From assembly GCF_002007205.1 (NCBI RefSeq), contig NZ_LAZS01000004.1:1-64000 (forward strand): a stretch of 64,000 bases of DNA. The letters run 5' to 3'. This stretch comes from Ensifer adhaerens. Its GTDB lineage: Bacteria; Pseudomonadota; Alphaproteobacteria; Rhizobiales; Rhizobiaceae. Numbering within the stretch: position 1 is the stretch's first letter; the number at the start of each line of letters is the position of its first letter. Below are positions 9,089-58,977 of the stretch, one piece after another. The notes under the pieces are model-generated. The model was not told where the DNA came from. It did not search any database and was given only the letters and a program-made list of their open reading frames with translations. A program made the position numbers and the translations under genes.

Positions 9089-9454
9089 TCAGCGACGAAG
9101 AAGTGCCGCGACGGCGAGGCCAATTAGGGCGGCAGCGCCGAGTGTCGCAAACGGGTGCTCGCGCACGGCCTGGCGGACCTGCTTCTCCGTTCCGGAGTAG
9201 CGGCCGCGAAGTTCGGCAAGCAGTTCTTCGCCGCTCGCCAGAAGTTCGCTGACGCTCGCTTCGGCCTGCTCGCGGGCGTCATGAGCCTTGCTGCGCGCCT
9301 GCTTCGACGCGGCCGATCCGCGGTCGGCTAGCAAGGCAACCAGCGTCGCGACGTCGTCGCGAAGCTCGCTCAGTTGTTCCTCGACGGAGATATCGGCAAG
9401 CTTGCCGTTTTTTGTCGAACGCGAGCTCGAACCGGAGAAGAGGCCTGATGCCAT
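9089..9454 (-). CDS. DUF883 (ElaB/YqjD-like) membrane-anchored protein
   Basis: 121-aa protein with a Ser-rich N-terminus, a long charged alpha-helical region rich in Ala, Glu and Arg (residues about 25-95) and one C-terminal membrane helix (HPFATLGAAALIGLAVAALLRR). This is the layout of ElaB/YqjD proteins, which in enterobacteria attach to the inner membrane and can bind ribosomes in stationary phase. The gene precedes the holin-like gene by 73 bp on the same strand. A small GC-rich hairpin lies just upstream (9478-9501). Family membership is likely; function here is unknown. Confidence 0.75.
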   Translation of the reverse strand: MASGLFSGSSSRSTKNGKLADISVEEQLSELRDDVATLVALLADRGSAASKQARSKAHDAREQAEASVSELLASGEELLAELRGRYSGTEKQVRQAVREHPFATLGAAALIGLAVAALLRR

Positions 9455-9659
9455 GACGAATACTCCCTTTCACACATGCGCCGGCCGCGAACGGTCGGCG
9501 CTTCCTGATCAAACCGGCGCACAACTGTAGGCCTGCGCCGGCGCTTTGGGAGAACAACGCGCAAGTGCGGAAATTGTTTCGATAGATCTTGGTGTTGCGC
9601 CTCGGAAGGATCAAAAGGTGAAGGCGAACCGGCGGTGCCCGGTCCGCGTGGCCTCATCG

Positions 9660-10451: not shown

Positions 10452-10459
10452 GGCTTCGT

Positions 10460-12515: not shown

Positions 12516-12536
12516 CTGCGTGTCCTATCCTTTGTC

Positions 12537-13598: not shown

Positions 13599-13608
13599 TT
13601 TCATCTGC

Positions 13609-13788
13609 CTATTTGTTCAGGATCAGCTTGCCTTGGCGGGTGATCTTCATGCGGTAGATCGCGCCGTCGTGGGAAATGAGGATCTCGTTTTCGGTGCCGA
13701 AGAGCTCGCGACTTTCGATGATCCGTTGCGCCCGCCCTGCCGGCATCGGCGGCTCGGATGGGCGTACGAGATTGTTGTCGTTGGTCAC
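13609..13788 (-). CDS. hemP: Hemin uptake protein HemP
   Basis: Small HemP-family protein. The C-terminal half carries the family core: RIIESRELF, then HDGAIYRMKITRQGKLILNK at the very end. HemP proteins are short factors encoded with bacterial heme-uptake genes and, in some rhizobial relatives, promote expression of the heme receptor. The GTG at 13788 gives 59 aa, typical for the family, and has AGG five bases upstream; the ATG at 13836 (75 aa) has a poorly spaced ribosome site. First gene of the leftward hemP-hmuSTUV unit. Confidence 0.85.
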   Translation of the reverse strand: MTNDNNLVRPSEPPMPAGRAQRIIESRELFGTENEILISHDGAIYRMKITRQGKLILNK

Positions 13789-13864
13789 TGCGCCTGGCCG
13801 TTTCGAGAGGGGCAGGCCGCGCTGTTTTTCCAGCATTTCCTGCCGTGCAATTCGTTTACTATCT

Positions 13865-13879
13865 TGACTTCATTACTCA
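13865..13879. promoter_or_regulatory. RirA-type iron-responsive operator (IRO box)
   Basis: TGA-N9-TCA motif, the box bound by the rhizobial iron regulator RirA, in the AT-rich gap between hemP and the rightward secreted-protein/tonB genes. It overlaps a possible rightward -35 (TTGACT, 13864-13869). It could repress both divergent units when iron is sufficient. Confidence 0.65.
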
Positions 13880-13997
13880 TATTTATTTATGGACGCAATA
13901 CCGGACTTACAAACTCAAGTTAGTTGCCACCGGCTTGTGGACAAGGGCGTGCGGACGGCGCTCGGTGGTGTGCTCGATCCTTTGGAGTGGTGTCGTT

Positions 13998-14435
13998 ATG
14001 AAGTTTTCCAGCCTTCCGATTGTTTCCGTTGCTCTTGCGGCTCTCGTCGCCGCAACCGCTGCCAAGGCGCAGGAGACCGCAACGGTCGGAGGCCTGACGA
14101 TCGAGCTCAACGAGGTGGCGCCTTCGCAGAAGGGCTGCAAGCTGACCTTCGTCGCCGGCAACGAATTCGCGCAGTCGCTGAGCAAGGTTTCCTTCGAGTT
14201 CGTGATCTTCGACCAGAGGGGCCTGGTCGAGCGCATGGCCGTGCTCGATTTCCGCGATCTTCCCGCCGGCAAGACCAAGGTTCGCCAGTTCGATCTTCCA
14301 GGCACCAATTGCGATGCGGTCAAGAGCCTGCTGATCAACGATGCGCCGGCCTGTGTCGGCGACGGCGTTCAGCCGGGCGCGTGCATGAGCGGGATCAAGA
14401 CCGGCTCGAAGTCGGCGGTCGAACTCAAGGGCTGA
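13998..14435 (+). CDS. Small secreted protein upstream of tonB, function unknown
   Basis: 145-aa protein with a signal peptide ending near AKAQ (residue 24) and no membrane segment after it. The mature part contains four cysteines (GCKL, TNCD, PACVG, GACM), suggesting two disulfides in the periplasm, and a beta-rich core (VSFEFVIFDQRGLVERM). ATG 13998 follows TTGGAGTGG; the longer in-frame extension upstream is not credible. It lies 78 bp before tonB and divergent from hemP with an IRO box between, so an iron-linked envelope role is likely. I recognise no named family. Confidence 0.75.
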   Translation: MKFSSLPIVSVALAALVAATAAKAQETATVGGLTIELNEVAPSQKGCKLTFVAGNEFAQSLSKVSFEFVIFDQRGLVERMAVLDFRDLPAGKTKVRQFDLPGTNCDAVKSLLINDAPACVGDGVQPGACMSGIKTGSKSAVELKG

Positions 14436-14513
14436 GCGGGATTGGGGCTGGGCGCGTCCGGCAATCCGAGCATGAGGTTTGCGTCGCCCTGGTGCGACGA
14501 AGGTAAGGCTGCA

Positions 14514-15419
14514 ATGAAGCGTATCGTCATCTGGACCGGGGCCGCGGTCTTCTCGCTTGCAACGCACGGCGTCGTGCTCGCCACCCTGTTTGGCGGCAAC
14601 CCGCCCGAGACACAGCTGGATCTGATCCAGGGCGGCGAAAGCGTCGAGGTGGCGCTTCTCGGCGACGCTTTCGAGGAAACGCTTCAGTCGGGCGCGGTGT
14701 CCGATGTCGTCGAGCCCACGGAAGAGCTGCCCGAGGAAGTTCAGCCTGCCGAGATCCAGCCGGTCGAGGACGTTGCCCCGACGCAGGAGATCGCTGCAGA
14801 GGAGCCTCACGACCTGACGGCGACGGAAGCGGACGTCATTCTGCCGGCTGAGCAAATGCCGACCCTGCAGGTCGCCGAAGCGGTGGTGACGGCGAGCGTT
14901 GCACCGGTCGAGACTGTTGTGCCGGAAGAAAAGCCCGAGGAGCCGAAGAAGGAAAAGGTCGAAAAGCCGGAGCCGAAGAAGGAGCCGGTGAAAAAGAAGA
15001 AAGTGACCCGCAAGAAGGCCGGCGACCAGGGCGAGCAGGCGCAGAACCAGGTCAAGGGCAAGCAGGACGGCCAGGAGAACGGCAATTCCTCCGCCGCGAA
15101 TGGCAACAGCCGCGCGTCCGAGGTCGGGAACGCCGACATGGAGAACTATGGCGGCAAGATCCGCAAGAGGATCACGCGCCGGTTCAAGGTTCCGGCCGCC
15201 GCAAGACGCGACGGTGTATCCGGCACGGCGACCGTCCGCTTCACCCTGACGTCGGACGGAAACCTGACGCGGGTCAGCGTCGCGGGCAGTTCCGGCTCGC
15301 CGGCGATCGACGAGGCAGCCGTCGATGCGGTTCGCCGCGCTGCCCCATTCCCGGAGTTTCCGGCTGGAGCGCCAAGCTCCAAATCCTTCATCGTGCCGAT
15401 GGTTGCGACCGTTCGCTGA
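14514..15419 (+). CDS. tonB: TonB energy-transducing protein
   Basis: 301-aa TonB. A single N-terminal membrane anchor (IVIWTGAAVFSLATHGVVLA) is followed by a long acidic, Pro/Glu then Lys-rich periplasmic spacer (about residues 50-185, with EEPKKEKVEKPEPKKEPVKKK-like composition). The C-terminal TonB domain from about 205 has YGGKIRKRITRRFKVP, GTATVRFTL and AAPFPEFP. It couples the proton-motive force, through ExbBD, to outer-membrane heme or siderophore receptors. ATG 14514 is preceded by AAGGTAAGG. Placement beside the hmu genes suggests it serves heme uptake; exbBD and a receptor gene are not in this window. Confidence 0.92.
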   Translation: MKRIVIWTGAAVFSLATHGVVLATLFGGNPPETQLDLIQGGESVEVALLGDAFEETLQSGAVSDVVEPTEELPEEVQPAEIQPVEDVAPTQEIAAEEPHDLTATEADVILPAEQMPTLQVAEAVVTASVAPVETVVPEEKPEEPKKEKVEKPEPKKEPVKKKKVTRKKAGDQGEQAQNQVKGKQDGQENGNSSAANGNSRASEVGNADMENYGGKIRKRITRRFKVPAAARRDGVSGTATVRFTLTSDGNLTRVSVAGSSGSPAIDEAAVDAVRRAAPFPEFPAGAPSSKSFIVPMVATVR

Positions 15420-47764: not shown

Positions 47765-47782
47765 ATGGCGCACCCGACAGGA
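47765..47782. repeat. Left attachment site (attL core)
   Basis: 18-bp ATGGCGCACCCGACAGGA, identical to 58900-58917 at the tRNA-Arg 3' end. It lies 243 bp after the formyltransferase gene and marks where host DNA meets the element. Sequence identity stops at once on both sides of the 18 bp. Confidence 0.9.
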
Positions 47783-47991
47783 ATGCAATATGCGTTCCGA
47801 ATCAATGAGTTACAGCTACTAACCTGTTCAAAACGTCTCGTTGAAACTCAATGCGTTTTTCCGATTTCTCCTAACCTCGGAGAGATCTCGCCAAATGGAA
47901 AAGCCGCCGCGATTGCAGTCGCGAACGGCTTCGGTATTTCCACACAAAATGTTTATAGCGGTTCCAGCGCCTCGGCTCAAGAGGTGCACGT

Positions 47992-50013
47992 ATGAACATT
48001 GCGCAGACTGTCTTTGATGCCATGGGCGGCAAGCGCTTCGCCGACATGGACATCGGCGGTAATTCGTGCCGCATTCCCGGTCCCGGTCATGGCAAGGATG
48101 ACCGTAGCTTGTCCGTCAAGAACGACGCCGGCAACCCCGACGGCTTTGTCGTCAACTCGTTTGCCGACGACGACGCTGCAGCGTGCCGCGATCACGTGCG
48201 CCGCCTTGCTGGCTTGCCGGAATGGAAGCCGACGCCTCGCGCCGATCGGCCGACCGATCCGCAGTTCGTCTATCGTGACGAGCACGGCCAGCCCTATCTG
48301 CGCGTGACGAAAGTGCACAAGGGCAGCGGCAAGAGCTTCTACCAGCACAGTTGGAACGGTCGCGAATGGGTGAAGGGCGCGCAGAATCGCCGGATCCCGT
48401 ATCACCTTCCCGCAGTCATCGCGGCCGATACGGTCTACGTCTGCGAAGGCGAGAAAGACGCCGACAACCTGATGGATCTCGGCCAGGATATTGTCGCAAC
48501 GACTGCACCGGAGGGCGCCGGCAAGTGGCGTTCGGAGCTTAACCATTGGTTCGACGGCAAGCACATAATCATCCTCGCTGATAATGACGAGCCCGGACGA
48601 AAGCATGCCGATCAGGTCGAGCGGGAACTGACTGGCGTTGCTGCCAGCATCAAGCAAGTGCATTTCCCGATGCTGCCGGATAAGGGCGACGTTTCGGACT
48701 GGCTCGACACCGGCAAGACGAAGGCCGACTTGCTGGCCTACATCGATGCACAGGCGACACCGGAACCGGCACAGCGCGAACGCTTCACCCTCGATTGGTT
48801 CCACGAGATCGAAGACTCCATGCCGAAGGAGACATTCATCAAGGGCGTCTTCGGCGTGAACGAGTTCACCATGCTCTCGGGCAAACCAGGATCAGGCAAG
48901 TCAGTGATCACGACCGACATGGCTTGCCACGTCGCTGCCGGGATGGACTGGCACGGCCGCAAGGTGAAACAGGGCCTCGTGGTCTACATCGCTGCAGAGC
49001 GCAAGGATCTGACCAAGCGCCGAATGCTGGCTTTCCGTAAGCGGCACGGCATCAAGGGCGCTATTCCGCTGCTCGTTATGGGCGGCCGCATGGACCTGAC
49101 CACCGGGCTGAAAGACGCTGAAGACATCGCGGCCACAATCAAGCGAGCCGAGGAAGATTGCGGCATGTCGTGTGTCTGGATCATCGTGGACACCCTGACC
49201 CGCACCTTTGGCCCTGCCGACCAGAACCAATCTAAGGACATGACGCGGTTCATTCAGTCCTGCGACACGATCCGCGAATCCGTCACCGGCTCGCACGTCA
49301 CCGTCATTCATCACACCGGCTGGGCTGGCGATCGAGGCAAGGGCGCGATCGATCTGGACGGCGCGGTTGATGCTTCCTTCCTCGTTAAGAAAGAGGCTGG
49401 CGGCTATCTGCTGGAATGTGACGGCACCAACGACGGCGACGAAGGCGTTATCACGCATTTCCGCATGGAAGGCGTGCAGGTAGGCATTGACGAGGATGGC
49501 CAGCCGACGATGGCCCCTGTCGTTATCCCGACGGATGGCAAGACTGCCGGCGAGAAGCTGGTGGCAAGCGTGAAGGGCCACGCTGCGGCCGTTCTGGAAG
49601 CGCTGGAAGGCGTCTGCCACGAGGAAGGCATGGCAACCGATGAAGAGTGGCGCAAGGCCTATTATGCGAAGGCAGAGGCAGGAACCAAGCCGCACACACT
49701 CAAGACGCGATACCTGCGAGCGAAGGAACAGCTTATCGCAAGCGGCACAGTCACAGAAGCACACGGCACGTTCCGACCGTCACAAGCCGTCACATGTGAC
49801 GCCGATGTGACGTGTGACGATATCGATTTGGGCATCAACATACCGTCACGTCACGTCACACACTCTTTAGAGTGTGACGATGTGACGGGTAATGTGCCGG
49901 GAAAAGAAGAAGAATGTGACGATGTGACGGTTTCAGTCCAGAACCCCTATCAACAGATGAAAGATGGAGGTGAGTTCACTCCACCTGTCTTCCTTCGTGG
50001 AGATGCAGCATGA
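47992..50013 (+). CDS. Satellite replication protein: Toprim primase-like plus RepA-type helicase
   Basis: 673-aa replication protein. The N-terminal part (about 1-250) has DNA primase-like features including the Toprim segment VYVCEGEKDADNLMDLG and IIILADNDEPGRKHA. The central part (about 275-500) is a RecA/RepA-type helicase with Walker A SGKPGSGKSVITTDMA, Walker B VWIIVDTLTRTFG and HVTVIHHTGW. The C-terminal tail repeats CDDVT-like units because the DNA there is a cluster of TGTGACG repeats. ATG 47992 is the only good start, with GAGGTG upstream. First gene of the element; overlaps the HNH gene (ATGA). Likely replicates the excised satellite. Confidence 0.88.
   Translation: MNIAQTVFDAMGGKRFADMDIGGNSCRIPGPGHGKDDRSLSVKNDAGNPDGFVVNSFADDDAAACRDHVRRLAGLPEWKPTPRADRPTDPQFVYRDEHGQPYLRVTKVHKGSGKSFYQHSWNGREWVKGAQNRRIPYHLPAVIAADTVYVCEGEKDADNLMDLGQDIVATTAPEGAGKWRSELNHWFDGKHIIILADNDEPGRKHADQVERELTGVAASIKQVHFPMLPDKGDVSDWLDTGKTKADLLAYIDAQATPEPAQRERFTLDWFHEIEDSMPKETFIKGVFGVNEFTMLSGKPGSGKSVITTDMACHVAAGMDWHGRKVKQGLVVYIAAERKDLTKRRMLAFRKRHGIKGAIPLLVMGGRMDLTTGLKDAEDIAATIKRAEEDCGMSCVWIIVDTLTRTFGPADQNQSKDMTRFIQSCDTIRESVTGSHVTVIHHTGWAGDRGKGAIDLDGAVDASFLVKKEAGGYLLECDGTNDGDEGVITHFRMEGVQVGIDEDGQPTMAPVVIPTDGKTAGEKLVASVKGHAAAVLEALEGVCHEEGMATDEEWRKAYYAKAEAGTKPHTLKTRYLRAKEQLIASGTVTEAHGTFRPSQAVTCDADVTCDDIDLGINIPSRHVTHSLECDDVTGNVPGKEEECDDVTVSVQNPYQQMKDGGEFTPPVFLRGDAA
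49778..49929. repeat. TGTGACG iteron-like cluster, candidate replication origin
   Basis: Ten exact TGTGACG heptamers within 152 bp: seven on the + strand (49795, 49806, 49813, 49873, 49881, 49915, 49923) and three inverted (49778, 49788, 49854), plus two CGTCACG variants (49844, 49849). Includes the palindrome CGTCACATGTGACG (49788-49801) and the inverted repeat CACACTCT-TT-AGAGTGTG (49859-49876). It lies inside the 3' end of the replication gene, where satellites and plasmids often keep their origin. Confidence 0.75.
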
Positions 50014-50423
50014 GCAAGTGGCCGTACTCCACAGCAACCTGGCAGCGTTTGCGCGCTGCCAAGCTCTCCGCTTCGCCTCTCTGCGAAGCATGTATCCGCA
50101 GGGAGGTGGTCGAGCCTGCCAGCGTCGTTGACCACATCATTGCTATAGCCAAGGGCGGTGATCCTTTCCCGCCGCTCTCTGGCCTCATGGCCATGTGCGA
50201 GCCATGCCACAACGCGAAGACGAACGCGAAGGACCACCCGAACGCATCGGGCTTCCGTCGCGCTCTGAAGGGCTTTGACGTCGACGGCAACCCCATCGAC
50301 GGCGAAGGATGGGAGCCAGGGGCCTTCGACAGACGAGGATCGACGGCCGCTGTACCGGCGTGGGAGACGAACAAAGACTTAGTTTTGAAATTGCCTAACC
50401 GGGAGGCCGAACGATGGGTCTAA
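50010..50423 (+). CDS. HNH endonuclease of the packaging module
   Basis: 137-aa HNH nuclease. Zinc-binding cysteines are in CEACIRREVV and CEPCHNAKTNAK, with the core VVDHIIAIAKGGDP supplying D-H. In HK97-like phages and cf-PICI satellites an HNH protein encoded just before terminase takes part in cutting DNA for packaging. It overlaps the replication gene before it and the terminase gene after it by 4 and 10 bp, suggesting one transcript. Confidence 0.92.
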   Translation: MSKWPYSTATWQRLRAAKLSASPLCEACIRREVVEPASVVDHIIAIAKGGDPFPPLSGLMAMCEPCHNAKTNAKDHPNASGFRRALKGFDVDGNPIDGEGWEPGAFDRRGSTAAVPAWETNKDLVLKLPNREAERWV

Positions 50424-52060
50424 GGGGACCAGGCGCAAAGCCCAAAAAGGGGCGGAAAGCGGCCAACGATAACCGTCGTGACGAGCTTCCGTGGCAGGCT
50501 GAAGGCCTCGATCGGCTGGAGCGTGTCGTCGCATTCATGGAAGATATGCCGGTCACGCAGGGCAAGCTCGCCGGCACTAAGATGAAGCTACGCCCTTGGC
50601 AGGTCGAGCAATTCCTAGAGCCGATCTTCGCGGAAGATGACGAGGGCAAGCGGCGTGTCCGCACGGCTGCGCTATCGATGGGCCGCAAGAACGGGAAGAC
50701 CGGCATCTCTGCCGCGCTGGCCCTTTGCTTCCTCGTGGGACCAGAAGCCGAAGACCGTGGCGAGGTCTATTTTTGCGCGATGGATAAAGCCCAGGCGGCG
50801 AAGGCGTGGGCCGAATGCAAGGCGATGCTGGAACAGCATGCAGAGCTTTCGGAGCGCGTGAACATCATCCGTTTCAGCAAGGAAATCGAGGTGCTGGAGG
50901 GGCAGGGCAAGGGCTCGGTCCTGAAGGCGCTTTCCGCCGATGCTGATAGCAAGCTCGGCCTCTCGCCCTCGTTCGTGCTCTGCGACGAAATCGGCTACTG
51001 GCCGAAGCGTGATCTATTCGACGCGATGGACTCCGCACTGGGTGCACGTGACGAGCCGCTGATCGTTGCTATCTCGACGCAAGCCAAGGACGACACGCAT
51101 TTCTTCTCTGAGATGATCGACTACGGTCTCAAGATCAAGGACGGCGAAGTCGAGGACGAATCCTTTCACCTGGCGATGTTTGCGGCCAGCATGGATGATG
51201 ATCCTTGGGATCCAGCAACGTGGGCGAAGGCCAATCCGGCGCTCGGTGACTTCCTGTCTCTGGAGCAGGTCGAGCGCATGGCCATGCAGGCGCAGCGCAT
51301 ACCGTCGAAGGAAGCCGACTTCCGGAATAAGGTGCTGAACCAGCGGATTGACGGCACAGTGCGGTTCATCGCGGCAAGGGAGTGGAATGACTGCAACTTG
51401 GCGCCGATCGACGACAAGGAGCTCGAAGGTCGCGAATGCTTCGGGGCTTTGGACTTATCCGCTGCCCGCGACCTTACGTGCTTCCTGCTTGTGTTCCCGG
51501 AAGGGGATGGTCGCTACACGGTCCTGCCGCGGTTCTTCCTTCCTGAGTTCGATATCGACGGCAAGTCGGACGCGGATCGTATTCCCTACAACGTATGGGC
51601 AAGGCAGGCAGACGCCAGGCTGACCCTGTTACCGGGGAAAGTGATCGATCCCCTCCTCGTGGCGGAATACATCGCCGACGAGGCGGCGCGGTTCGATATC
51701 AAGGCTATCGCCTATGATAGGTGGCGCATCGAGGATCTGAAGCGCGAGCTGGAGAAGCTGTCTGTCGAGTTGCCCCTTGTGCCGTTCGGGCAGGGGTACA
51801 AGGACATGTCGCCAGCGGTGGACGTTCTGGAGGTCGCAGTCGCGCAGCAGAAGCTCAATCACGCGGGCAACGTGTTGATGCGGATGTGCGCGGCGAATGC
51901 TGTCGTAACGAAAGATCCGGCCGGCGCCCGCAAGCTTGACAAGTCTAAGGCGAGTGGGCGCATTGATGGTATCGTTAGCCTTGCAATGGCGCTGAAGACT
52001 GCGCAGGGCCACGAGGAAGAAAGCCTGCCAGGCTGCATGCTCGCAATGCTGGCGGCATAG
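50414..52060 (+). CDS. Phage terminase large subunit (TerL, HK97-like)
   Basis: 548-aa TerL. The ATPase domain has Walker A-like SMGRKNGKTGISAALAL near residue 90 and Walker B FVLCDEIGYW near 190; the C-terminal nuclease domain begins around CFGALDLSAARDLTCF (acidic active site) and includes IAYDRWRIEDLKREL. The basic N-terminus MGLRGPGAKPKKGRK is common in this family. It packages DNA into the element's own procapsids. No small terminase gene lies beside it. Overlaps HNH by 10 bp. Confidence 0.94.
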   Translation: MGLRGPGAKPKKGRKAANDNRRDELPWQAEGLDRLERVVAFMEDMPVTQGKLAGTKMKLRPWQVEQFLEPIFAEDDEGKRRVRTAALSMGRKNGKTGISAALALCFLVGPEAEDRGEVYFCAMDKAQAAKAWAECKAMLEQHAELSERVNIIRFSKEIEVLEGQGKGSVLKALSADADSKLGLSPSFVLCDEIGYWPKRDLFDAMDSALGARDEPLIVAISTQAKDDTHFFSEMIDYGLKIKDGEVEDESFHLAMFAASMDDDPWDPATWAKANPALGDFLSLEQVERMAMQAQRIPSKEADFRNKVLNQRIDGTVRFIAAREWNDCNLAPIDDKELEGRECFGALDLSAARDLTCFLLVFPEGDGRYTVLPRFFLPEFDIDGKSDADRIPYNVWARQADARLTLLPGKVIDPLLVAEYIADEAARFDIKAIAYDRWRIEDLKRELEKLSVELPLVPFGQGYKDMSPAVDVLEVAVAQQKLNHAGNVLMRMCAANAVVTKDPAGARKLDKSKASGRIDGIVSLAMALKTAQGHEEESLPGCMLAMLAA

Positions 52061-52074
52061 GAAGGGAGAGCGGA

Positions 52075-52281
52075 ATGAACCAGAACGAACTACTGACCCG
52101 GCTCAAATACAGACGTTTCGCCGTAATTTCTGAGATGCTGAAACGTGAGGAGACTGACGAGTTGATTGCCAAGCTGAGCGCCATTCAGGGCGCAATCGCT
52201 GCGGTCGAAGCTCGCGCGGCGGAGAGCCCGGATCCAGCAGAGTCGCCTTGGAATGATCCAAGCTACAGGCTCAACCGCTGA
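52075..52281 (+). CDS. Small satellite protein after terL
   Basis: 68-aa helical protein with a charged heptad-like N-terminus (NELLTRLKYRRFAVISEMLKREETDELIAKLSAIQGAIAAVEARAA), so a coiled coil is probable. ATG 52075 is 14 bp past terL with GAAGGGAGAG upstream. A terminator follows immediately. Its place and size would suit a small packaging or adaptor factor, but no family is recognised. Confidence 0.6.
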   Translation: MNQNELLTRLKYRRFAVISEMLKREETDELIAKLSAIQGAIAAVEARAAESPDPAESPWNDPSYRLNR

Positions 52282-52301
52282 TCTGTAACATCAAAGCAAC
52301 A

Positions 52302-52338
52302 CCCTGCCGTCATCATCTGGCGGCAGGGCAACTTTTTC
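52302..52338 (+). terminator. Terminator of the replication-packaging unit
   Basis: Perfect 8-bp stem CCCTGCCG / CGGCAGGG with an 11-nt loop, then CAACTTTTTCCC. It ends the unit that starts with the replication gene, splitting the element into at least two transcription units. Confidence 0.85.
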
Positions 52339-52524
52339 CCGCCAAAAGTGCCATTTTCCGGCTTCTCGGCGGGTGTATATATAGAGGGGTATCACATAGC
52401 GTCACATTGAGTGAGGGCTACCACCTTGACGGGAGCCCGAAACTATGGAAATTACAAGATGCGGGTTTCACCAGTTCGCAGCGCCTCACCAGCGCACGCA
52501 TACCACCACACTGAGGAGACGAAG

Positions 52525-52632
52525 ATGGCAACGGTTTTAACCGGCCGACTTCGCTCGGCCATTTTGTGGAGTGATGGTAATGCAGCAGAAAGAAACAGCA
52601 CCGCAATCCTTCCATCCAGGCCAGTGCGTTAA
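52525..52632 (+). CDS. Leader-peptide-like small ORF
   Basis: 35-codon ORF with one of the best ribosome sites of the element (GAGGAGACGAAG before ATG 52525). It begins MATVLTGRLRSAILW and has no recognised family. A perfect hairpin GGCCGA-CTTCGC-TCGGCC (52543-52560) followed by ATTTTG lies inside it, and it overlaps the start of the next small gene. This layout could act as a translated leader controlling downstream genes, though a true small protein is possible. Confidence 0.4.
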   Translation: MATVLTGRLRSAILWSDGNAAERNSTAILPSRPVR

Positions 52633-52831
52633 TCACGTGTCGGGCGGCATGCCGTCGATCGTCATTGACCGCGGGACAACAGCCAATGGGCGCGAGCACT
52701 ACCGGCTTAGGGACATCAAGCCCACCGGGCCTAGCCGAGAGCGATGGTTCCTGGGTGACTACCTCAAGGCCACAATCGTAGGCAGCGAAGAATGCCGGGA
52801 CTGCCCGATGCGCTGGTTATGCTTCTCATGA
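52580..52831 (+). CDS. Small satellite protein with CxxC motif
   Basis: 83-aa protein, MQQKETAPQSFHPGQCVNHV..., with a central part resembling a small beta-fold (VIDRGTTANGREHYRLRD) and a C-terminal EECRDCPMRWLC cysteine cluster, possibly zinc binding. ATG 52580 has TGGAGTG upstream. The stop overlaps the next small gene (ATGA), which supports both as real. Function unknown; position between packaging and capsid modules is where satellites carry accessory genes. Confidence 0.55.
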   Translation: MQQKETAPQSFHPGQCVNHVSGGMPSIVIDRGTTANGREHYRLRDIKPTGPSRERWFLGDYLKATIVGSEECRDCPMRWLCFS

Positions 52832-53058
52832 AGCGAGCCGTCATCCTCGAAATCAAGCAACTGGCCGCTGAAGCTGGCGCGATTGATTGGATGCTTGTCC
52901 GCGAGGGCAAGCATCTCGTCATAGACTTCACGTTCACTGATCGCACTATTCGCCAAGTAGTTGCCGCTACACCGTCGGGGCCTTCTGGTCGCCGTAACGA
53001 GGCTGCATGGCTTAGGCGACAAGCCAGGGCGAAAGTTTTTTCGCATACCACATCTTGA
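52828..53058 (+). CDS. Small satellite protein, HicA-like fold possible
   Basis: 76-aa protein with IDWMLVREGKHLVIDFTFTDRTIRQVVAATPSG, a pattern recalling small HicA-like/dsRBD-type phage proteins, followed by a basic tail (GRRNEAAWLRRQARAK). ATG 52828 overlaps the preceding stop (ATGA). No antitoxin-like partner is recognised beside it, so a toxin role is not claimed. Confidence 0.55.
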   Translation: MKRAVILEIKQLAAEAGAIDWMLVREGKHLVIDFTFTDRTIRQVVAATPSGPSGRRNEAAWLRRQARAKVFSHTTS

Positions 53059-53120
53059 CGCTCGCTGGCGTTTCCCGGTTATTAGACTATATATAGATCT
53101 GCGGAACGGTGTCGCTCACA

Positions 53121-53156
53121 TTTTTTTGGAAAAGTCAAGCACTTTCCATAAAAAAG
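53121..53156. terminator. T/A-flanked hairpin, possible bidirectional terminator
   Basis: Stem with arms TTTTTTTGGAAA and TTTCCATAAAAAA around AGTCAAGCAC, 60 bp after the last small accessory gene. The long T and A runs at its base would suit termination of either strand. Confidence 0.5.
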
Positions 53157-53186
53157 ACAAGATCGTTTGCTAGGATTCCAAAATAA

Positions 53187-53345
53187 GCCGAACCGCGATT
53201 CGGCAATGGGTAGGCCGCCGGCAAAGACCGGCACGGGGAACGCGCTAAAGCGCATGATGAGGGAAAGCGCCGAATTGGCCGCTACCGAACGGGGGAATAC
53301 AATCTGAAAGTTTTAGCCTGGCGCGTTTTCGCAGCCGGGCTTTTC
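53187..53345 (+). ncRNA. Candidate structured RNA with its own terminator, upstream of the capsid gene
   Basis: Non-coding stretch with several nested helices: hairpins GCCGAA/TTCGGC (53187-53204), GCCGG/CCGGC (53217-53232) and GCGC/GCGC (53242-53253). A longer helix pairs GGTAG (53209-53213) with CTACC (53282-53286), continued by GCC/GGC, and encloses the second and third. It ends in a terminator, AGCCTGGC-GCG-TTTT-CGC-A-GCCGGGCT then TTTT (53315-53344). I recognise no known RNA family. It could be a regulatory RNA or a leader read-through element for the capsid genes. Confidence 0.45.
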
Positions 53346-53371
53346 GTGTTTCCGCAGCAAATGCGGGAAAC

Positions 53372-53389
53372 CCGTAGGTCGACCTACGG
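53372..53389. promoter_or_regulatory. 18-bp perfect palindrome in the capsid gene leader
   Basis: CCGTAGGTCGACCTACGG reads the same on both strands and lies 69 bp before the capsid ATG. It could be a dimeric regulator's operator or an mRNA hairpin in the capsid 5' leader. The capsid ribosome site AAGGAG is at 53449-53454. Confidence 0.6.
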
Positions 53390-53457
53390 AAATAACGGGG
53401 AAGGCGCACGCCTAGGAAACGAAGCCGACCCCATTCTCAACTGTCCAAGGAGACAAC

Positions 53458-54624
53458 ATGACTATTGCTCACATGCAAGAACAGCGCGCCGCGAAACTCG
53501 CAGAACTGAAGGCCGTTGTCAACAATCCCGAGGCCTTCGACAAGATCGAGGCCGAAGTGCGTAAGCTTGATCAGGACATCAAGCGCTCTGCCAGCCTCGC
53601 GGAGCTCGAACGTCAGTCCGAGGCGCAGCCGGATCACGTGCAGGAGCGTGAGCTTCGCTCTTACTCCGTTGCCAAGGCGCTGACCGAGTCTCTCAACGGG
53701 AAGCTGACCGGCGTCGAAGCCGAAATGCACGCGGAGCTTTCCAAGGGGCGCGAGTCTCGCGGTGTGATGATCCCAACGGCTATGCTGCTGGAAACCCGCG
53801 ACCAGACGGTAGGCACGCCTTCCGCCGGCGGCTACACCGTGGCAACGCAGCTCGGTGGTCTGATCGATCGCCTTCGTCCGACCCTCGCGGTTCAGGGCAT
53901 GGGCGCCACGGTCCTCTCTGGCCTCACCGGAAATCTGGACCTGCCGCGGCTTCTCACTGGTCCGACCGCATATTGGGTGGCCGAGGACGGCAACACGACC
54001 GAATCGGCTTCCACGTTCGATAAGGTCAGCATGTCGCCGAAGACCGTCTCTGGCGAAATGCAGATTTCCCGTCGCCTCATGCTGCAGAATGCTGTGGCCC
54101 TTGAGTCAGTCCTTCGTGCGGATCTCGGCTTCGTGCTCGCCCAGGCGCTCGACAAGGCCGCTATCGCCGGCACTGGCGCTTCCAATCAGCCGACTGGCAT
54201 CCTCACGGCCATCACCGAGAACGCCACCGCGGCCACCGCGATGAGCGATATCGCTGCCGACCTGATCTCTGCACTTGAGATCGACGACGTGATGAACACC
54301 GGCGCCTTCCTGACCAATGCGACGGTCATGGGCACTGCTCGGAAAATCAAGGAAGGCGGCACCAATCGGCCGATTCCGGTTTCCGAGACGTTCCACCAGA
54401 AGCCGGTTACCGTCTCGAACAACGTTCCCGCGGTCCTGACGGAAAACCCGATCATCTACGGCGCATGGAACAACCTGATTATCGGCTACTGGTCTGGCGT
54501 CGACATTCTGCTGAACCCCTACCATTCTGATGTTGCTTCGAAGGGTGGCGTGAAACTGCATGCCTTCTTGGATGCAGATATCGCGATCCGCCACGCGGAA
54601 GCCTTCGCCTGGAAGGCCATCTAA
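53458..54624 (+). CDS. HK97-type major capsid protein
   Basis: 388-aa HK97 gp5-like capsid protein. An N-terminal helical scaffolding/delta region (about residues 1-100, rich in Glu, Lys, Ala) precedes the coat domain beginning near DQTVGTPSAGGYTVATQL. Later signatures are WVAEDGNTTESASTFDKVSMSPKTVSGEMQISRRLM, ADLGFVLAQALDKAAIAGTGASNQPTGIL and FLTNATVMGTARKIK. The delta region would be removed by the protease encoded 274 bp downstream. ATG 53458 has AAGGAG upstream. It makes the element's own head. Confidence 0.95.
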   Translation: MTIAHMQEQRAAKLAELKAVVNNPEAFDKIEAEVRKLDQDIKRSASLAELERQSEAQPDHVQERELRSYSVAKALTESLNGKLTGVEAEMHAELSKGRESRGVMIPTAMLLETRDQTVGTPSAGGYTVATQLGGLIDRLRPTLAVQGMGATVLSGLTGNLDLPRLLTGPTAYWVAEDGNTTESASTFDKVSMSPKTVSGEMQISRRLMLQNAVALESVLRADLGFVLAQALDKAAIAGTGASNQPTGILTAITENATAATAMSDIAADLISALEIDDVMNTGAFLTNATVMGTARKIKEGGTNRPIPVSETFHQKPVTVSNNVPAVLTENPIIYGAWNNLIIGYWSGVDILLNPYHSDVASKGGVKLHAFLDADIAIRHAEAFAWKAI

Positions 54625-54902
54625 TGACGGCCGTCAGCCTCGCTGAAGCCAAGGCTCATCTCCGCATCACCTTTGCTGCGGACGACGCCTACATCACCGG
54701 CATCATTGAGGCGGCGGAAGGCTACGTGCAGACCATTGGGGTGAGCTTCGGCTCACCCCTTCAGCCTGCCGTGCGTCACGCTGTCTTGCTGATCGTTTCC
54801 CATTTCTACAGCAACCGCGAAGCCGTCACCGCGGCCGGCATTGCTGCCATGCCTTTCGGTGTCAACGCACTGCTGCAGCCTTACAGGGAGCAGAATCTAT
54901 GA
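54624..54902 (+). CDS. Head-tail connector protein (gp6-like)
   Basis: 92-aa protein starting with SLAEAKAHLRITFAADDAYITGIIEAAEGYVQTIG, the pattern of phage gp6-like connector (DNA packaging/adaptor) proteins that ring the portal exit. It overlaps the capsid stop by one base and the protease start by four. In a satellite such a connector prepares the head to accept a helper's tail. Confidence 0.88.
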   Translation: MTAVSLAEAKAHLRITFAADDAYITGIIEAAEGYVQTIGVSFGSPLQPAVRHAVLLIVSHFYSNREAVTAAGIAAMPFGVNALLQPYREQNL

Positions 54903-55426
54903 CGATTGAAACTCGCATCGCGACCGAAGTTCGCGCAGAAGGCCGCAAGCTGACTGGCTATGCTGCTACGTTCGGCAACGAAACGCGGATCCTCGATTTT
55001 AGCGAGACGATCGCGCCTGGCGCGTTCTCCGCTTCTCTTCGGTCTAATCCTGACATTCTCGCCCTCGTGGATCACGATTCCGGAAAAGTGTTGGCGCGGA
55101 CCAAGAGCGGCTCGTTGAAGCTCTGGGAAGACGCCAAGGGCTTGGCCTACGAAATCGCTTTGCCTGAAACCAGCCTCGGCCGCGATATCCTCGCTCTTGC
55201 CACGAGGGGCGATGTGGGCGGGGTCTCGTTTGGCTTCACCGTTCCGGATGGAGGCGACACCTGGCAGGGCGATAAGCGCACGCTCCGCAACGTCGTTCTG
55301 CACGAGATTTCCATCGTGCAGAGCTTCCCGGCGTATTCGGGGACCAGTGTGCAGGCTCGGTCTCGCCAGCAGCGCACGGAAGCTGACCGGCGCATTGCGC
55401 TTCTGGAGCTGGAGGGCAGCCGATGA
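54899..55426 (+). CDS. HK97-family prohead protease
   Basis: 175-aa U35-type serine protease. The catalytic His is in LALVDHDSGKVLARTKSG and the Ser in GDVGGVSFGFTV, with ITGYAATFGNE-like N-terminal features (LTGYAATFGNETRILDF). It trims the capsid's N-terminal region during head maturation. Overlaps the connector before and the portal after (ATGA), showing coupled translation. Confidence 0.94.
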   Translation: MTIETRIATEVRAEGRKLTGYAATFGNETRILDFSETIAPGAFSASLRSNPDILALVDHDSGKVLARTKSGSLKLWEDAKGLAYEIALPETSLGRDILALATRGDVGGVSFGFTVPDGGDTWQGDKRTLRNVVLHEISIVQSFPAYSGTSVQARSRQQRTEADRRIALLELEGSR

Positions 55427-56646
55427 TTTGGCCCTTCAATCGCAAGACTGAAACACGCATCGCCTCATCGGACCCGTATCTCGGCGAATTCCTCGGCGCT
55501 CGCTGGACGGCTCGAGCAGACGTCGAGAAGGCGAGCGGCCATGCTGTCGCGCATCGCTGCATTGCGGCTATCTCCGAGTCGTTGGCTGGCGTTCCGCTCA
55601 AGCTGTACCGCAAGACCGAGGACGGCGGCCGTGAAGCGGCAACGGATCATCCTCTGTATGAGGTGTTGCAGACGCAGACCTCCGCGACCCTGACCGCTTT
55701 CGAGGCGCGCGAATGGCTCGTCTCCAGCATCCTGACCTATGGCAACGCATACGCCAAGATCGATCGCAACGGCCGCGGCCAGGTTACCGCCCTCCATCCC
55801 CTCGTGGCTGGAACGGTAGCTGTCGAGGTGCTGAAGTCCGGACGCCTGCGCTACAAGGTGGCGAGGGCTGACGGCGCCGTCGACGTGATCCTGCAAGACG
55901 AGATGTTGCACTTGCGTTACCGCACCCGCGACGGCGTGCTCGGCATGTCGCCTCTGCAAATCGCTTCTGCAACCGTCGCTCTTGCCCTCGCTCAGCAAGA
56001 CCAGGCAGGTGCTGCGGCTGAGAATGCTTTCCGGCCCGCCGGCGCATTGGTATTTCCGGACAAGCTGGCTGCAGGCTCTGGTGCCGGATCCAAGGAAAGC
56101 GTGGTTGCCAAGTTTAAGGAACGGTTCATTGGCGCCATGAAGGCTAACGAGGTGATGATCCTCGACTCCGGAGCGAAGTTCGAGACCTTCAGCTTTAACA
56201 GCAAGGACTCGGAATTCCTCGAAAGCCGGAAGCTGAGCAACCTCGATATCTGCCGCGTGTTCGGTGTTCCGCCTTCGGTCGCCGGCATCCTGGATGATAG
56301 CAACTATGCCTCGAACGTCGAGGAGTCGCGTGCGCTCGTGACGCGATGCCTTGCTCCTATGGCCAAGCGGATCGAGCAGGCAATGAACGTTGCCCTACTG
56401 ACGCCGGAGAGCCGCAAGACGTTCTTTCTGGAGCACGACCTCGCCGGCCTCCTCCGCGGAGATCTAACCACCCGCTATGCGGCGTATCGCGTTGGCCGCG
56501 AGGGCGGATGGCTGAGCTCGAATGAGATCCGTGCGTTCGAGAACATGAGCAAGATCGAGGGCGGCGACTCCTATGTCGAGCCCCTGAATTATGGCTTGCT
56601 CGGCGCGAACGACAACCGCGGTAAGATCGATGAGGCCGCGGCATGA
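55423..56646 (+). CDS. HK97-family portal protein
   Basis: 407-aa portal. Family marks are AVAHRCIAAISESLAGVPLKLYRK, DHPLYEVLQTQTSATLTAFEAREWLVSSILTYGNAYAKI, LHLRYRTRDGVLGMSPLQIA and FGVPPSVAGILDDSNYASNVEE. Twelve copies form the vertex through which DNA enters. It lies downstream of capsid and protease, the reverse of the usual portal-protease-capsid order. Overlaps the protease and the next small gene by four bases. Confidence 0.95.
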   Translation: MIWPFNRKTETRIASSDPYLGEFLGARWTARADVEKASGHAVAHRCIAAISESLAGVPLKLYRKTEDGGREAATDHPLYEVLQTQTSATLTAFEAREWLVSSILTYGNAYAKIDRNGRGQVTALHPLVAGTVAVEVLKSGRLRYKVARADGAVDVILQDEMLHLRYRTRDGVLGMSPLQIASATVALALAQQDQAGAAAENAFRPAGALVFPDKLAAGSGAGSKESVVAKFKERFIGAMKANEVMILDSGAKFETFSFNSKDSEFLESRKLSNLDICRVFGVPPSVAGILDDSNYASNVEESRALVTRCLAPMAKRIEQAMNVALLTPESRKTFFLEHDLAGLLRGDLTTRYAAYRVGREGGWLSSNEIRAFENMSKIEGGDSYVEPLNYGLLGANDNRGKIDEAAA

Positions 56647-56807
56647 GCGGCGCCCTCAAGAAGTTCGAAGACCGCATGTGGGCCTTGATCGGCGTAGGTG
56701 ACCAGGGTCCAGGCTGGCGCTGGCACATCACCGAAGACCGGCATCCGCAGTTGCACCGCATGTATGCTCGCCTCGTGGCTGCCAACGACAATCAGGTGGC
56801 AGCATGA
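56643..56807 (+). CDS. Small satellite protein between portal and head-closure genes
   Basis: 54-aa ORF: ATG 56643 overlaps the portal stop and its TGA overlaps the head-closure ATG at 56804, so it sits in an unbroken chain of coupled genes and is probably real. The sequence (residues include GWRWHITEDRHPQLHRMYARL) shows no known domain and no signal peptide. Function unknown. Confidence 0.65.
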   Translation: MSGALKKFEDRMWALIGVGDQGPGWRWHITEDRHPQLHRMYARLVAANDNQVAA

Positions 56808-57145
56808 CCGGCGCGGGCGATCTCCGCGAAGTCATCGACATGCAGGCGCGGGAAATCGGAGACGACGGCTACGGTAACCCCGTTGTCGGAGACTGGGCCA
56901 CGGTCTGGTCTGCGCCGGCTCGCGTCCAAATCTTGCGAGGCTCAGAAACGGTCATGGCTGGCCGTCTCACCGGCAAGCAGACCGTAGCATTGACCATGAG
57001 GTGGCAACCTGAGTTTGCCACCGTCGACACCACCTGGCGCGCCGTCAACAGCCGCACAGGCGAAGAGATGAACATCAGAAGCATTGAAGCCGACGAGCGC
57101 AAGGCGTTCGTGAACGTGCTTTGCGAAAAAGGAGTTGCGACATGA
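56804..57145 (+). CDS. Phage head-closure / head-tail adaptor protein
   Basis: 113-aa protein with the head-closure (gp16 SPP1-like) pattern: DLREVIDMQAREIGDDGYGNPV, ATVWSAPARVQILRG and VDTTWRAVNSRTGEEMNI RS-type ending. It would close the packaged head and offer the tail-docking surface. It is the most tail-ward component recognised in the element; no tube, tape-measure or baseplate gene follows. Confidence 0.85.
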   Translation: MTGAGDLREVIDMQAREIGDDGYGNPVVGDWATVWSAPARVQILRGSETVMAGRLTGKQTVALTMRWQPEFATVDTTWRAVNSRTGEEMNIRSIEADERKAFVNVLCEKGVAT

Positions 57146-57582
57146 AATTTGAGATTCGCGGTATGAAGTTCTTCCTTGCAGACAACGGCAGGGCACCATT
57201 CATGAAGCTCGCCCTCGCCAGCATCTACATTCCAGATCTGGAGGCCCACATCCAAGATGTTGTGCTCACGTGGTCGAGCTCTAAGGGATGGATCGCACAG
57301 GCGCCATACACCAAGCGCGGCGAGCCGCCGATGGTCCAGTGGAACCATCGCGGCGCCTTCTCGATCGACCTGGCCCGCAAGATGAAGCAGATGTACCTCG
57401 CGATGGGCGGCAAGAATCCGGAAGCTTCGGCCGCCATTGCATCGGCCAAGGCTGGCGAGATCGAGTATCGCACCTTCCCGGCAACGTTCACCATCCACGA
57501 GGCGGCAAACGACAACAACATGTCTGGCGTTCTGCGCACGCTCGGTGTCGAGCAAGAGGAGGCCGAACGTGCCTGCGACTGA
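57142..57582 (+). CDS. Satellite protein of unknown function
   Basis: 146-aa soluble protein, MKFEIRGMKFFLADNGRAPFMKLA..., with an SDIQDVVLTW-like strand region and a C-terminal helical part. ATG 57142 overlaps the head-closure stop, with AAAGGAG upstream. It sits where HK97-type phages encode head-tail joining or tail-completion proteins, but the sequence is not recognisable to me as any. Could be a factor that adapts heads to a helper tail. Confidence 0.65.
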   Translation: MKFEIRGMKFFLADNGRAPFMKLALASIYIPDLEAHIQDVVLTWSSSKGWIAQAPYTKRGEPPMVQWNHRGAFSIDLARKMKQMYLAMGGKNPEASAAIASAKAGEIEYRTFPATFTIHEAANDNNMSGVLRTLGVEQEEAERACD

Positions 57583-57823
57583 CTTCGTCCCTCGTGGCCT
57601 TCGCCGCGCCGACGCTGCCCGCTACATCGGGATCAGCCCGACGCTGTTCGACGTGAAGCGGAAGGAGGGAGCAATCCCTCCGCCGCGCGACCTGTTCGGT
57701 GTGATGATCTGGGACCGCCACGATCTGGATTCACTTTTCGCCAAGCCAACCTATACTGCGGCCAACGACAACGCTTCCAACTATTGGGATAAGGTGTGCG
57801 GCTTCGAAAACCCAAGTACGTGA
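57569..57823 (+). CDS. AlpA/excisionase-like DNA-binding protein
   Basis: 84-aa protein with a winged-helix-like segment RGLRRADAARYIGISPTLFDVKRKEGAIPPPRDLFGVMIWDRHDLDSLF, typical of AlpA/Xis MerR-like regulators. In P4- and PICI-type satellites AlpA controls excision and expression. GTG 57569 has GAGGAGG six bases upstream. It overlaps the gene before by 14 bp and the integrase by 28 bp, so it is cotranscribed with int. Confidence 0.8.
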   Translation: MPATDFVPRGLRRADAARYIGISPTLFDVKRKEGAIPPPRDLFGVMIWDRHDLDSLFAKPTYTAANDNASNYWDKVCGFENPST

Positions 57824-58863
57824 ACGTCTATCAGGACCGTCACGACAAGACTCGCATCTACTACAGAGAGCCGGGAAAGCCGCAGGTGGCTTTGCCTGGC
57901 CCTTTGTATTCCGAAGAGTTCTGGATCGCGTACCACAAGGCCAAGGCGGCTGAACCGGTATCGGCAGGGAAGCCGCCGGCTGCCGGATCGATGGGCGCAG
58001 CGATACAGGGCTACTACAAGTCGGCTGAGTTCGCGCAATTGGCGGACTCTAGCAAGCAGGTCTATCGGCGCATCCTTGACGCCTTCGCCAAGGAGCATGG
58101 TCATGCACCGATCGCGGGGCTTCAGACCAAGCACATCAACGTGCTGATCGACGCGAAAGCCGAAACACCGGCCGCTGCGAACATCCTGCGGAAGCGGCTA
58201 TCCTCGGTTTTCGAGTACGCCAAGTCGGTGGACCTGATCCAGGTGAACCCGGCAAAGGAAGCTAAGCGGATCAGGATTAAGTCCAAGGGCTACCGTTCAT
58301 GGACAGAAGCGGACATCGCCGCCTATCGTGCGAAGTGGGGCGAAGGCACTCCGGAGCGCATTGCAATGGAAGTCCTGCTGCACACCGGCCTTCGCAGGTC
58401 CGATGCGGTTCGCCTCGGCTGGGATCACATCGTTGATGACGCCTTCGTAATCAGCACCAAAAAGTCACAGGAGATCGTCGAGCTATCGATCCCGCTCCAT
58501 ACTGGCCTGGCATTTATCTTCGACCTGCCACGAGGCCGAGAGACCTTCATTTCGACGGTCTACGGCAAGGCGCGGTCGGAGAAGGCGTTCACGAACTGGA
58601 TTCGCGAGGCCGCACATGAGGCCGGCCTGCCGTCGAATTCTTCGCCTCACGGCCTTCGCAAGGCGGCCTGCCGGCGTCTAGCGGAATCCGGATGCACTGC
58701 CCTTGAGATCATGTCGATCACAGGTCACCGCGACATCAAGGAAATCGAGAGGTACACCAAAGCCGCGGAAATGAAGCGATTGAGCCGTGCCGCTATGGCG
58801 AAATCAGAGCAATCGTTTATCATCAAATTGCCTAACCCAACAGATGGGTTAGTGGAATCCTAG
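57796..58863 (+). CDS. Tyrosine-type site-specific integrase
   Basis: 355-aa phage integrase. An N-terminal arm-binding and core-binding part (about 1-170) precedes the catalytic domain with Arg in LLHTGLRRSDAVRLGW, Lys in STKKSQEI, the HxxR box PHGLRKAACRRLA, His in ITGHRDIKEIERYTK and the nucleophile Tyr just after. GTG 57796 is the start (an upstream frame is short). The stop is 36 bp from the tRNA-Arg att core, its expected target. Confidence 0.93.
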   Translation: MRLRKPKYVNVYQDRHDKTRIYYREPGKPQVALPGPLYSEEFWIAYHKAKAAEPVSAGKPPAAGSMGAAIQGYYKSAEFAQLADSSKQVYRRILDAFAKEHGHAPIAGLQTKHINVLIDAKAETPAAANILRKRLSSVFEYAKSVDLIQVNPAKEAKRIRIKSKGYRSWTEADIAAYRAKWGEGTPERIAMEVLLHTGLRRSDAVRLGWDHIVDDAFVISTKKSQEIVELSIPLHTGLAFIFDLPRGRETFISTVYGKARSEKAFTNWIREAAHEAGLPSNSSPHGLRKAACRRLAESGCTALEIMSITGHRDIKEIERYTKAAEMKRLSRAAMAKSEQSFIIKLPNPTDGLVES

Positions 58864-58899
58864 TCTTAAAGCCTTGATTTCATGAAAGGAAATCTAGAA

Positions 58900-58917
58900 A
58901 TGGCGCACCCGACAGGA
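58900..58917. repeat. Right attachment site (attR core)
   Basis: 18-bp copy of the att core, overlapping the acceptor and T-stem 3' strand of the tRNA-Arg gene, including its encoded CCA. Integration therefore restores a whole tRNA gene. Confidence 0.92.
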
Positions 58918-58977
58918 TTCGAACCTGTGACCTTTGGAATCGGAATCCAACACTCTATCCAGCTGAGCTACGGGTGC
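58901..58977 (-). tRNA. tRNA-Arg (anticodon CCG)
   Basis: 77-nt tRNA on the minus strand. Acceptor GCACCCG (58977-58971) pairs with CGGGTGC; the anticodon stem is TTGGA/TCCAA with loop TTCCGAT, giving anticodon CCG at 58943-58941 (codon CGG); the T arm has GGTTCGAATCC; discriminator G and CCA are encoded. It is the integration target of the island to its left. Confidence 0.97.

Follow-up and report, generated by a model that had tools for sequence, protein, structure and literature searches.

A head-only, satellite-like element at a tRNA-Arg gene of Ensifer adhaerens, with relatives in gene transfer agent clusters

Is a chromosomal element that carries phage head genes and no tail a mobile unit in its own right, or what remains of a prophage? 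This question is raised by an 11.15-kb element of Ensifer adhaerens, which extends from attL to attR over positions 47765-58917 of a 64,000-nucleotide stretch of DNA (NCBI RefSeq assembly GCF_002007205.1, contig NZ_LAZS01000004.1; hereafter the window). An initial annotation, made from the letters alone, had taken it for a satellite akin to the capsid-forming phage-inducible chromosomal islands (cf-PICIs). Following up on that annotation, we conclude, with a probability of about 0.83, that we are dealing with an intact, integrative phage satellite which produces a small HK97-type head of its own, fills it, and depends for tails and lysis on a co-resident or infecting siphophage. We regard it as a satellite and not as a broken prophage because tail-less relatives recur at near-constant size, mostly in one gene order and at many tRNA sites. 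Together these elements form a coherent group of alphaproteobacterial satellites with heads only, found in rhizobia among other hosts.

Gene content and integration site

Genes were assigned with Pfam, PHROGs and NCBIfam, and all assigned genes, from the replication protein through the integrase, run in one common direction. The features of the element are as follows (ORF, open reading frame; dN/dS, ratio of nonsynonymous to synonymous substitution rates; relatives are named by our locus numbers, beginning with L).

47765-47782, no strand: attL, 18-bp core, direct repeat ATGGCGCACCCGACAGGA
47992-50013, plus: replication protein of Toprim and AAA_25 helicase-primase type (Pfam AAA_25, E 1.7e-30; Toprim sub-threshold; PHROG 906, E 1e-52)
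50010-50423, plus: HNH endonuclease (PF01844, E 1.3e-6; PHROG 2323)
50414-52060, plus: terminase large subunit (TerL), HK97 type (PF20441, E 3.3e-38; PF03354, E 5e-16)
52075-52281, plus: 68-residue ORF (73% in L115, dN/dS 0.17; no family at cut-off)
52282-53457, plus: gene-poor gap between TerL and capsid gene, with two conserved non-coding blocks (about 52290-52411, and 53111-53457)
53458-54624, plus: major capsid protein (MCP), HK97 fold (PF05065, E 7e-37; TIGR01554)
54624-54902, plus: head-tail connector Ad1, gp6-like (PF05135, E 1.4e-13; TIGR01560)
54899-55426, plus: prohead protease S78 (PF04586, E 1e-40)
55423-56646, plus: portal protein (PF04860, E 3.9e-91)
56643-56807, plus: 54-residue ORF between portal and head closure (no family; without match in five relatives)
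56804-57145, plus: head closure protein Hc1 (HCP), the tail-docking side (PF05521, E 4.7e-14; rhizobial siphophage matches)
57142-57582, plus: SpoVG-like putative regulator (AlphaFold2 model and PDB matches)
57569-57823, plus: small helix-turn-helix, AlpA-like regulator (PHROG 25900 only, E 1.4e-10)
57796-58863, plus: tyrosine integrase (PF00589, E 4.9e-17; 93% identical in L044, at the same tRNA)
58900-58917, no strand: attR, 18-bp core, second copy of the direct repeat ATGGCGCACCCGACAGGA
58901-58977, minus: tRNA-Arg(CCG), the integration target, its 3' end overlapped by attR

The HNH endonuclease, TerL, capsid, connector, protease, portal and closure are each backed by a family, so the full head set of the initial annotation holds, as do its intact integrase, of tyrosine type, and the element's own replication protein, with AAA_25 and a sub-threshold Toprim. 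No tail, holin or lysin family was matched among the element's ORFs, again as annotated, and no D5-type replication family was matched in Pfam. For the gene called AlpA-like, an AlpA-type role is suggested only by its PHROG family ('transcriptional regulator') and its position; the gene has no Pfam or NCBIfam match.

Both copies of the clean att repeat reported at tRNA-Arg were located; by our own estimate about 0.001 such 18-mer repeats would be expected by chance in 14 kb. The identical core sits at the edges of two sister elements, L043 in Gellertiella hungarica and L044 in Ensifer sesbaniae. A congener (G009) carries the same tRNA and both window flanks about 95 bases apart, compared with 11 kb in the window, with flank blocks of 79% and 83% nucleotide identity; this empty site is evidence from one genome, since of 15 other congeners only G009 has the gene neighbouring the element on the left. 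This anatomy shows integration at tRNA-Arg by the element's own integrase. At the left end, an ORF beginning MAHPTGMQ starts inside attL (47765-47995), where the left-arm DNA is 70-83% conserved in L043, L044, L079 and L099; this DNA may be coding or serve as an integrase arm.

The initial annotation had argued that intact frames oppose random decay, and selection on the core genes bears this out. Compared with L099, a relative with an 87% identical capsid, the core genes have dN/dS values of 0.06-0.23 (TerL 0.06, integrase 0.07, portal 0.08, capsid 0.11), and TerL remains at 0.05-0.08 in four further comparisons, a sign of purifying selection that argues against decay. The SpoVG-like gene evolves faster (0.34-0.62). 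Two small ORFs, o86 and o54, had no match in any of five relatives compared, and the 68-residue ORF had no counterpart in the four compared besides L115.

The gene set suggests how such a satellite would work. After excision, it would be replicated by its Toprim-AAA protein. HNH and TerL would then cut the DNA and load about 11 kb of it into procapsids built from MCP, protease and portal, after which the connector and head closure would complete the head and the closure would dock a helper tail. The SpoVG-like and AlpA-like proteins are candidates for the control of induction.

A family of tail-less relatives

We searched for relatives with a capsid profile built from five members, which recovered 55 loci in named genomes, 50 of which we judged by name to be alphaproteobacterial, as well as 80 of 81 in IMG/VR, with hosts unnamed. 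These 135 relatives by capsid represent 119 distinct capsid DNAs; the two sets overlap, and one locus (L097) is the window element itself. At E <= 1e-60, the capsid was found in 10 of the 247 genomes sampled from the family and in 3 of the 385 from the class, the element's own genome being included in both counts. The 'compact Rhizobiales version' of the initial annotation proved too narrow, as relatives extend to Rhodobacterales- and Caulobacterales-type hosts and others.

Among the named-genome loci, 41 of 55 were bounded by att repeats, and 14 without clean ends were dropped. Thirty-seven were bounded by a chosen repeat pair (five of only 14 bp, at a tRNA end or shared motif) and four by an 8-bp core in a terminase gene. 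The bounded relatives measure 9,316-11,541 bp (mean 10,492, standard deviation 588), and 36 of the 41 keep the order HNH-TerL-MCP-protease-portal, the exceptions being L045, L066, L077, L085 and L090. Their targets include ten tRNA species (Arg, Ser, Thr, Lys, Val, Glu, Phe, Gly, Leu and Asn) and other sites. A near-constant length despite changing sites and cargo would fit a fixed head capacity. The recurrence of this block, without a tail module, also settles a point on which the initial annotation had depended, namely that related tail-less blocks exist elsewhere. Four elements (L059, L070, L050 and L075) had no detected tRNA and have the repeat GGGAGGGGTGGCCC or a close variant in common, which is probably a common non-tRNA target. 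The cargo of relatives includes matches to DDE transposase, PemK and SieB.

To place the capsid among known ones, we built a tree of 63 rows in which 39 relatives were entered besides the window. The window and 36 of the 39 relatives form a clade of 37 rows (ultrafast bootstrap 98, SH-aLRT 93), with no tailed phage inside it among the 63 rows. Next to it lie three of the relatives, more distant than the rest, a head-only block from an Acinetobacter plasmid, and the phages S-LBS1, Mica, R4C and RcCronus; phage 16-3-type capsids and gene transfer agent (GTA) capsids fall elsewhere, as does vB_KppS-Ant, an induced element from enterobacteria, which sits on a long branch. In a comparison with 50,697 phage records, used in all our phage searches, the capsid reached at most 37% identity among the best 25 of 101 matches, all under 60%.

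We then looked for tail and lysis genes across the family. The 41 bounded elements and the window element contain 569 ORFs, of which 288 were unassigned and fell into 219 clusters, and a family scan covered the 101 cluster representatives of at least 95 residues, leaving out 118 shorter ones. Among the best 25 of 84 PHROG and 25 of 29 Pfam families for these representatives, tape-measure and tail-tube families had one member each and lysis families none. A direct test used tail proteins of phages 16-3 and RHph_X2_25 as queries, which unrelated tails in the flanks would escape, and found no tail module in any of the 135 relatives. It did find a lone tail-tube homologue in six loci (L045, L047, L131, L133, L134 and L138), 56-63% identical to that of RHph_X2_25, and a lone tape-measure homologue in two (L066 and L170), L066 being without a TerL match. 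Capsid DNA is identical in L045 and L131, and in L066 and L170, so each pair is probably the same element; among the 41 bounded elements, three (L045, L047 and L066) carry a lone tail-type gene. The tail-terminator matches of L054 and L056, and of L153, an IMG/VR copy of L054, lie outside the bounded elements, in a GTA. Tail genes adjacent in relatives, which the initial annotation had named as the finding that would undo it, therefore amount to lone genes in eight of 135 loci or to GTA genes outside the elements. The likeness of the lone tail-tube genes to RHph_X2_25 points to contact with the same phages.

Likely tail donor, known systems and alternative explanations

Rhizobial phages were not among the best matches listed for TerL (25 of 2,198 records), portal (12 of 1,825), capsid (25 of 101) or connector (15 of 278). 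The head closure, in contrast, matched only 16 phage records at E <= 0.01, some of them duplicates, 13 of which have alphaproteobacterial names. Its top match was Rhizobium phage RHph_X2_25 of Sinorhizobium americanum (43%), followed by RHph_Y3_1, S. meliloti phages, 16-3, and Labrenzia and Mesorhizobium phages, and tail genes lie downstream of the homologue in the five phage records examined. Among 101 genomes of the host's relatives (own included), head closure matches occurred at 18 places in 14 genomes; three are satellites, one of them the window's, and siphophage tail genes adjoin 14 of the 15 others, two of these in the same genus. Because, of the five head and packaging proteins searched, only the docking protein best matches such phages, the helper is most likely a rhizobial siphophage of RHph_X2_25 / 16-3 type. 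The head closure protein could thus serve as a sequence-based clue to a satellite's tail donor, here 16-3-like siphophages. Such a host-matched docking protein, together with the GTA-terminase insertion site described below, is what specialists would be less likely to expect.

Two further loci bear on the search for helpers. A head closure match on contig C3 of Ensifer sesbaniae (genome G012) was rejected as a helper prophage, as it belongs to a second tail-less head element (L243) without tail-query matches. This element contains portal, fused protease-capsid, HNH, connector, closure, a SpoVG-like gene, a Terminase_4 small terminase, large terminase and a serine recombinase; its head closure and SpoVG-like gene are 45% and 27% identical to those of the window. 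The corresponding values against the tRNA-Arg satellite in G012 are 49% and 29%. The window genome itself has an island (L249; contig C19, about 508-523 kb) with an integrase, an S78-like protease, a small terminase (PF05119), a SpoVG-like ORF recognized by eye and a tape-measure-like ORF that is 63% identical over 180 residues to its phage 16-3 counterpart; neither a capsid nor a large terminase was matched in the island.

We compared the element with cf-PICIs, such as EcCIEDL933, as described in four sources (PMC10690885, PMC11389934, PMC13230959 and PMC10448857). As there described, cf-PICIs resemble the element in having their own HK97 head, protease, portal, connectors, HNH, TerL and integrase in a small genome without a tail module. 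The order of the element's genes, HNH-TerL-gap-MCP-connector-protease-portal-closure, differs from that of two gammaproteobacterial comparators, in which MCP-protease-portal precedes the terminase region; these are the Acinetobacter plasmid block and LR881103 (vB_KppS-Ant), an annotated phage that we take here as cf-PICI-like and that has a gene annotated as tape measure. Members of the element's family are about 10.5 kb long, and their capsid does not group with that of enterobacterial LR881103 (a long branch). Among the further cf-PICI features, an AlpA-type regulator may correspond to the small helix-turn-helix gene, and a Pri-Rep replication module may or may not have its counterpart in the window element's Toprim/AAA_25 protein. 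Published cf-PICI capsids fall in three clades (PMC11389934), and the published cf-PICI gene list includes a small terminase (PMC10690885). No small terminase having been found in the element, we do not file it as a strict cf-PICI; of the initial annotation, the function, a tail-less and capsid-forming satellite, is well supported and strict membership is not. The best reading is that the element functions like a cf-PICI, with its own small head and a borrowed siphophage tail. The satellite-plasmid cf-PISP TG54 of Vibrio likewise has a head-only satellite gene set, but is episomal, 15.8 kb long and equipped with 'terminases' (PMC13230959). With a head set of its own, the element differs from P4-like satellites and classical PICIs, which have none and remodel or redirect helper capsids. 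A complete temperate phage would have tail and lysis genes in the same replicon, and none were found here. Neither this family nor satellites inside GTA clusters turned up in our literature search, although rhizobial members may have been listed earlier.

Several observations weigh against the satellite reading. Excision, induction, particle and helper have none of them been observed. Family scans found no small terminase among the element's ORFs, PF05119 occurring in its own genome only on C19, outside the element, and the small terminases (TerS) of 16-3 and L243 matched none of the 135 relatives; the HNH ORF has a match to PHROG 4581 'terminase small subunit' (2.3e-8) that covers its HNH portion, and a small terminase may be divergent and unrecognised, dispensable or supplied by the helper. 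Searches with PF13547, PF13550, PF10145 and PF05521 revealed no tailed helper in the window genome; we therefore rejected a resident helper, and the helper would be an infecting phage. Eight of the 135 loci break the rule of having no tail gene. The nearest capsid in the tree, that of L042, belongs to an element with no match to the window integrase and a replication protein only 27% identical over 182 residues (dN/dS 0.68), so the family is modular and the unit is not conserved as a whole. Finally, none of the 80 IMG/VR relatives is terminally redundant (no exact terminal repeat of at least 12 bases), and we rejected free circular forms among them; four of these contigs have a 16-mer common to both end regions, as expected of integrated copies.

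We weighed three other explanations for the element. Descent from a prophage that lost tails and lysis by deletion would account for the phage-type character of every assigned gene and for the gene-poor TerL-MCP gap, but it is largely refuted by the near-constant size of the tail-less block in 41 bounded loci, the strong purifying selection, the precise att sites with an empty counterpart, and a capsid clade in which none of the 63 rows is a tailed phage. A head without tails might instead enter cells alone or in vesicles, as the window element has no tail gene and a head can be closed without one. This is very unlikely given that a connector and a head closure of the tail-docking kind are kept, the latter matched to local siphophages. 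Least probable of all is a GTA or other domesticated particle that serves the host and is not a mobile parasite. Some relatives do lie inside GTA clusters; the element, however, has its own integrase, att sites and replication protein, is patchily distributed (10 of 247 genomes of the family, its own included), and has a capsid in a different clade from those of GTAs. An RcGTA-type GTA would have a megatron/GTA_TIM gene and no integrase, whereas the window genome lacks the GTA marker PF13547. An integrative satellite with its own head thus remains our preferred reading.

Insertions in gene transfer agents, and candidate regulators

Four capsid-forming relatives lie inside GTA clusters, where each splits the RcGTA-type terminase gene.

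Pararhizobium mangrovi (L054), 4770-14961, co-oriented with the GTA cluster: element splitting the terminase gene
Chelativorans intermedius (L056), 5045-14970, co-oriented with the GTA cluster: element splitting the terminase gene
Hyphomicrobiales metagenome-assembled genome (L061), 1770-12041, co-oriented with the GTA cluster: element splitting the terminase gene
Bosea vaviloviae (L091), 4343-15008, co-oriented with the GTA cluster: element splitting the terminase gene

The insertion codon is identical in all four, with an 8-bp core. The left part of the split terminase ends in E-D-[EQ]-M-C-E-F, and the right remnant starts with M-C-[DE]-F-G-P and retains the conserved C-terminus. Gellertiella hungarica has this stretch uninterrupted, though there is a stop further upstream in that reading. 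Downstream genes match the GTA megatron, TIGR02218 and TIGR02219 in B. vaviloviae, the megatron, TIGR02217, TIGR02218 and (below cut-off) the RcGTA tape in P. mangrovi, and portal, capsid, connector, closure, tail completion and tail tube in C. intermedius. PF13547 is found on the element's contig in these three species; in the metagenome-assembled genome the contig ends near the element and a PF13547 copy lies on another contig. The GTA portal of P. mangrovi is in two pieces, and this GTA looks degraded.

The integrases of the GTA-embedded relatives are 82-91% identical to that of C. intermedius. An integrase of this kind occurs in 3 of 297 sampled genomes of the order (E <= 1e-60), only one of which (G143) has it beside a GTA terminase; there it has the opposite orientation and directly follows a truncated terminase, close to where the contig ends. 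A different island, of 16.5 kb, occupies the same GTA terminase site in Rhizobium herbae (L199, 2701-19206); its integrase is related (63%), the beginning of one of its ORFs resembles a tape measure protein by eye, and the head-gene queries gave no match in it.

The segment removed from the split terminase contains an S-P-D-R-x-D-A motif, which we take to belong to the nuclease site; GTA packaging would therefore be expected to fail for as long as the satellite is integrated. This lineage ties satellites to GTAs, and the prediction is that packaging is off when the satellite is integrated and on after excision. It is conceivable, though we consider it doubtful, that head-only satellites of Alphaproteobacteria are parasites of domesticated GTAs as well as of phages, with one lineage attaching at the GTA terminase gene, blocking packaging by the GTA when integrated, and riding on or controlling GTA production. 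If so, carriage of a satellite would determine whether GTA-mediated export of a population's own DNA takes place. Use of GTA tails by the embedded lineage is unsupported: its head closure is 27-31% identical to GTA g7 (alignments of at least 80 residues) and 48% to that of Agrobacterium phage Rivra. The embedding itself is shown.

Helper-embedded PICIs in prophage late genes, terminase included, are known (PMC10111431), from a text in which the term 'gene transfer agent' is absent. The GTA-embedded relatives resemble them in that an integrase lineage targets a late gene, the terminase, and in their co-orientation with the interrupted cluster in all four capsid-forming cases. They differ in that the interrupted cluster is a GTA and not a prophage, and in that the satellites bring their own head sets; the window element, for its part, lies at a tRNA. 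We found no report in the literature of satellites splitting a GTA terminase.

Candidate regulators were also considered. The predicted structure of the 57142-57582 product (predicted local distance difference test score 81, from 17 sequences) had SpoVG as all of its six best PDB matches (probability 0.60-0.97, E 0.07-0.4, query template-modelling score 0.34-0.39), and SpoVG was also its best sequence-profile match (E 0.21), which is suggestive of a SpoVG-like protein. Upstream of the capsid gene, a conserved non-coding block (53206-53457 in the window) has predicted hairpins and an 18-bp palindrome CCGTAGGTCGACCTACGG; the block 53111-53457 is a candidate structured leader of the capsid operon. 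No Rfam family was found in the gap region 52282-53457. In the predicted fold, 12 of 35 pairs have two-sided changes in nine sequences, with a covariation term of only -1, and the window RNA alone has a z-score of -1.32, 21 of 200 shuffles folding at least as well; the structured leader was therefore not upheld and is left as a lead. No repressor was identified in the window element, where XRE queries gave only a 19-residue match (E 0.14). An antisense XRE repressor is present in the TerL-MCP gap of 16 of the 41 bounded relatives.

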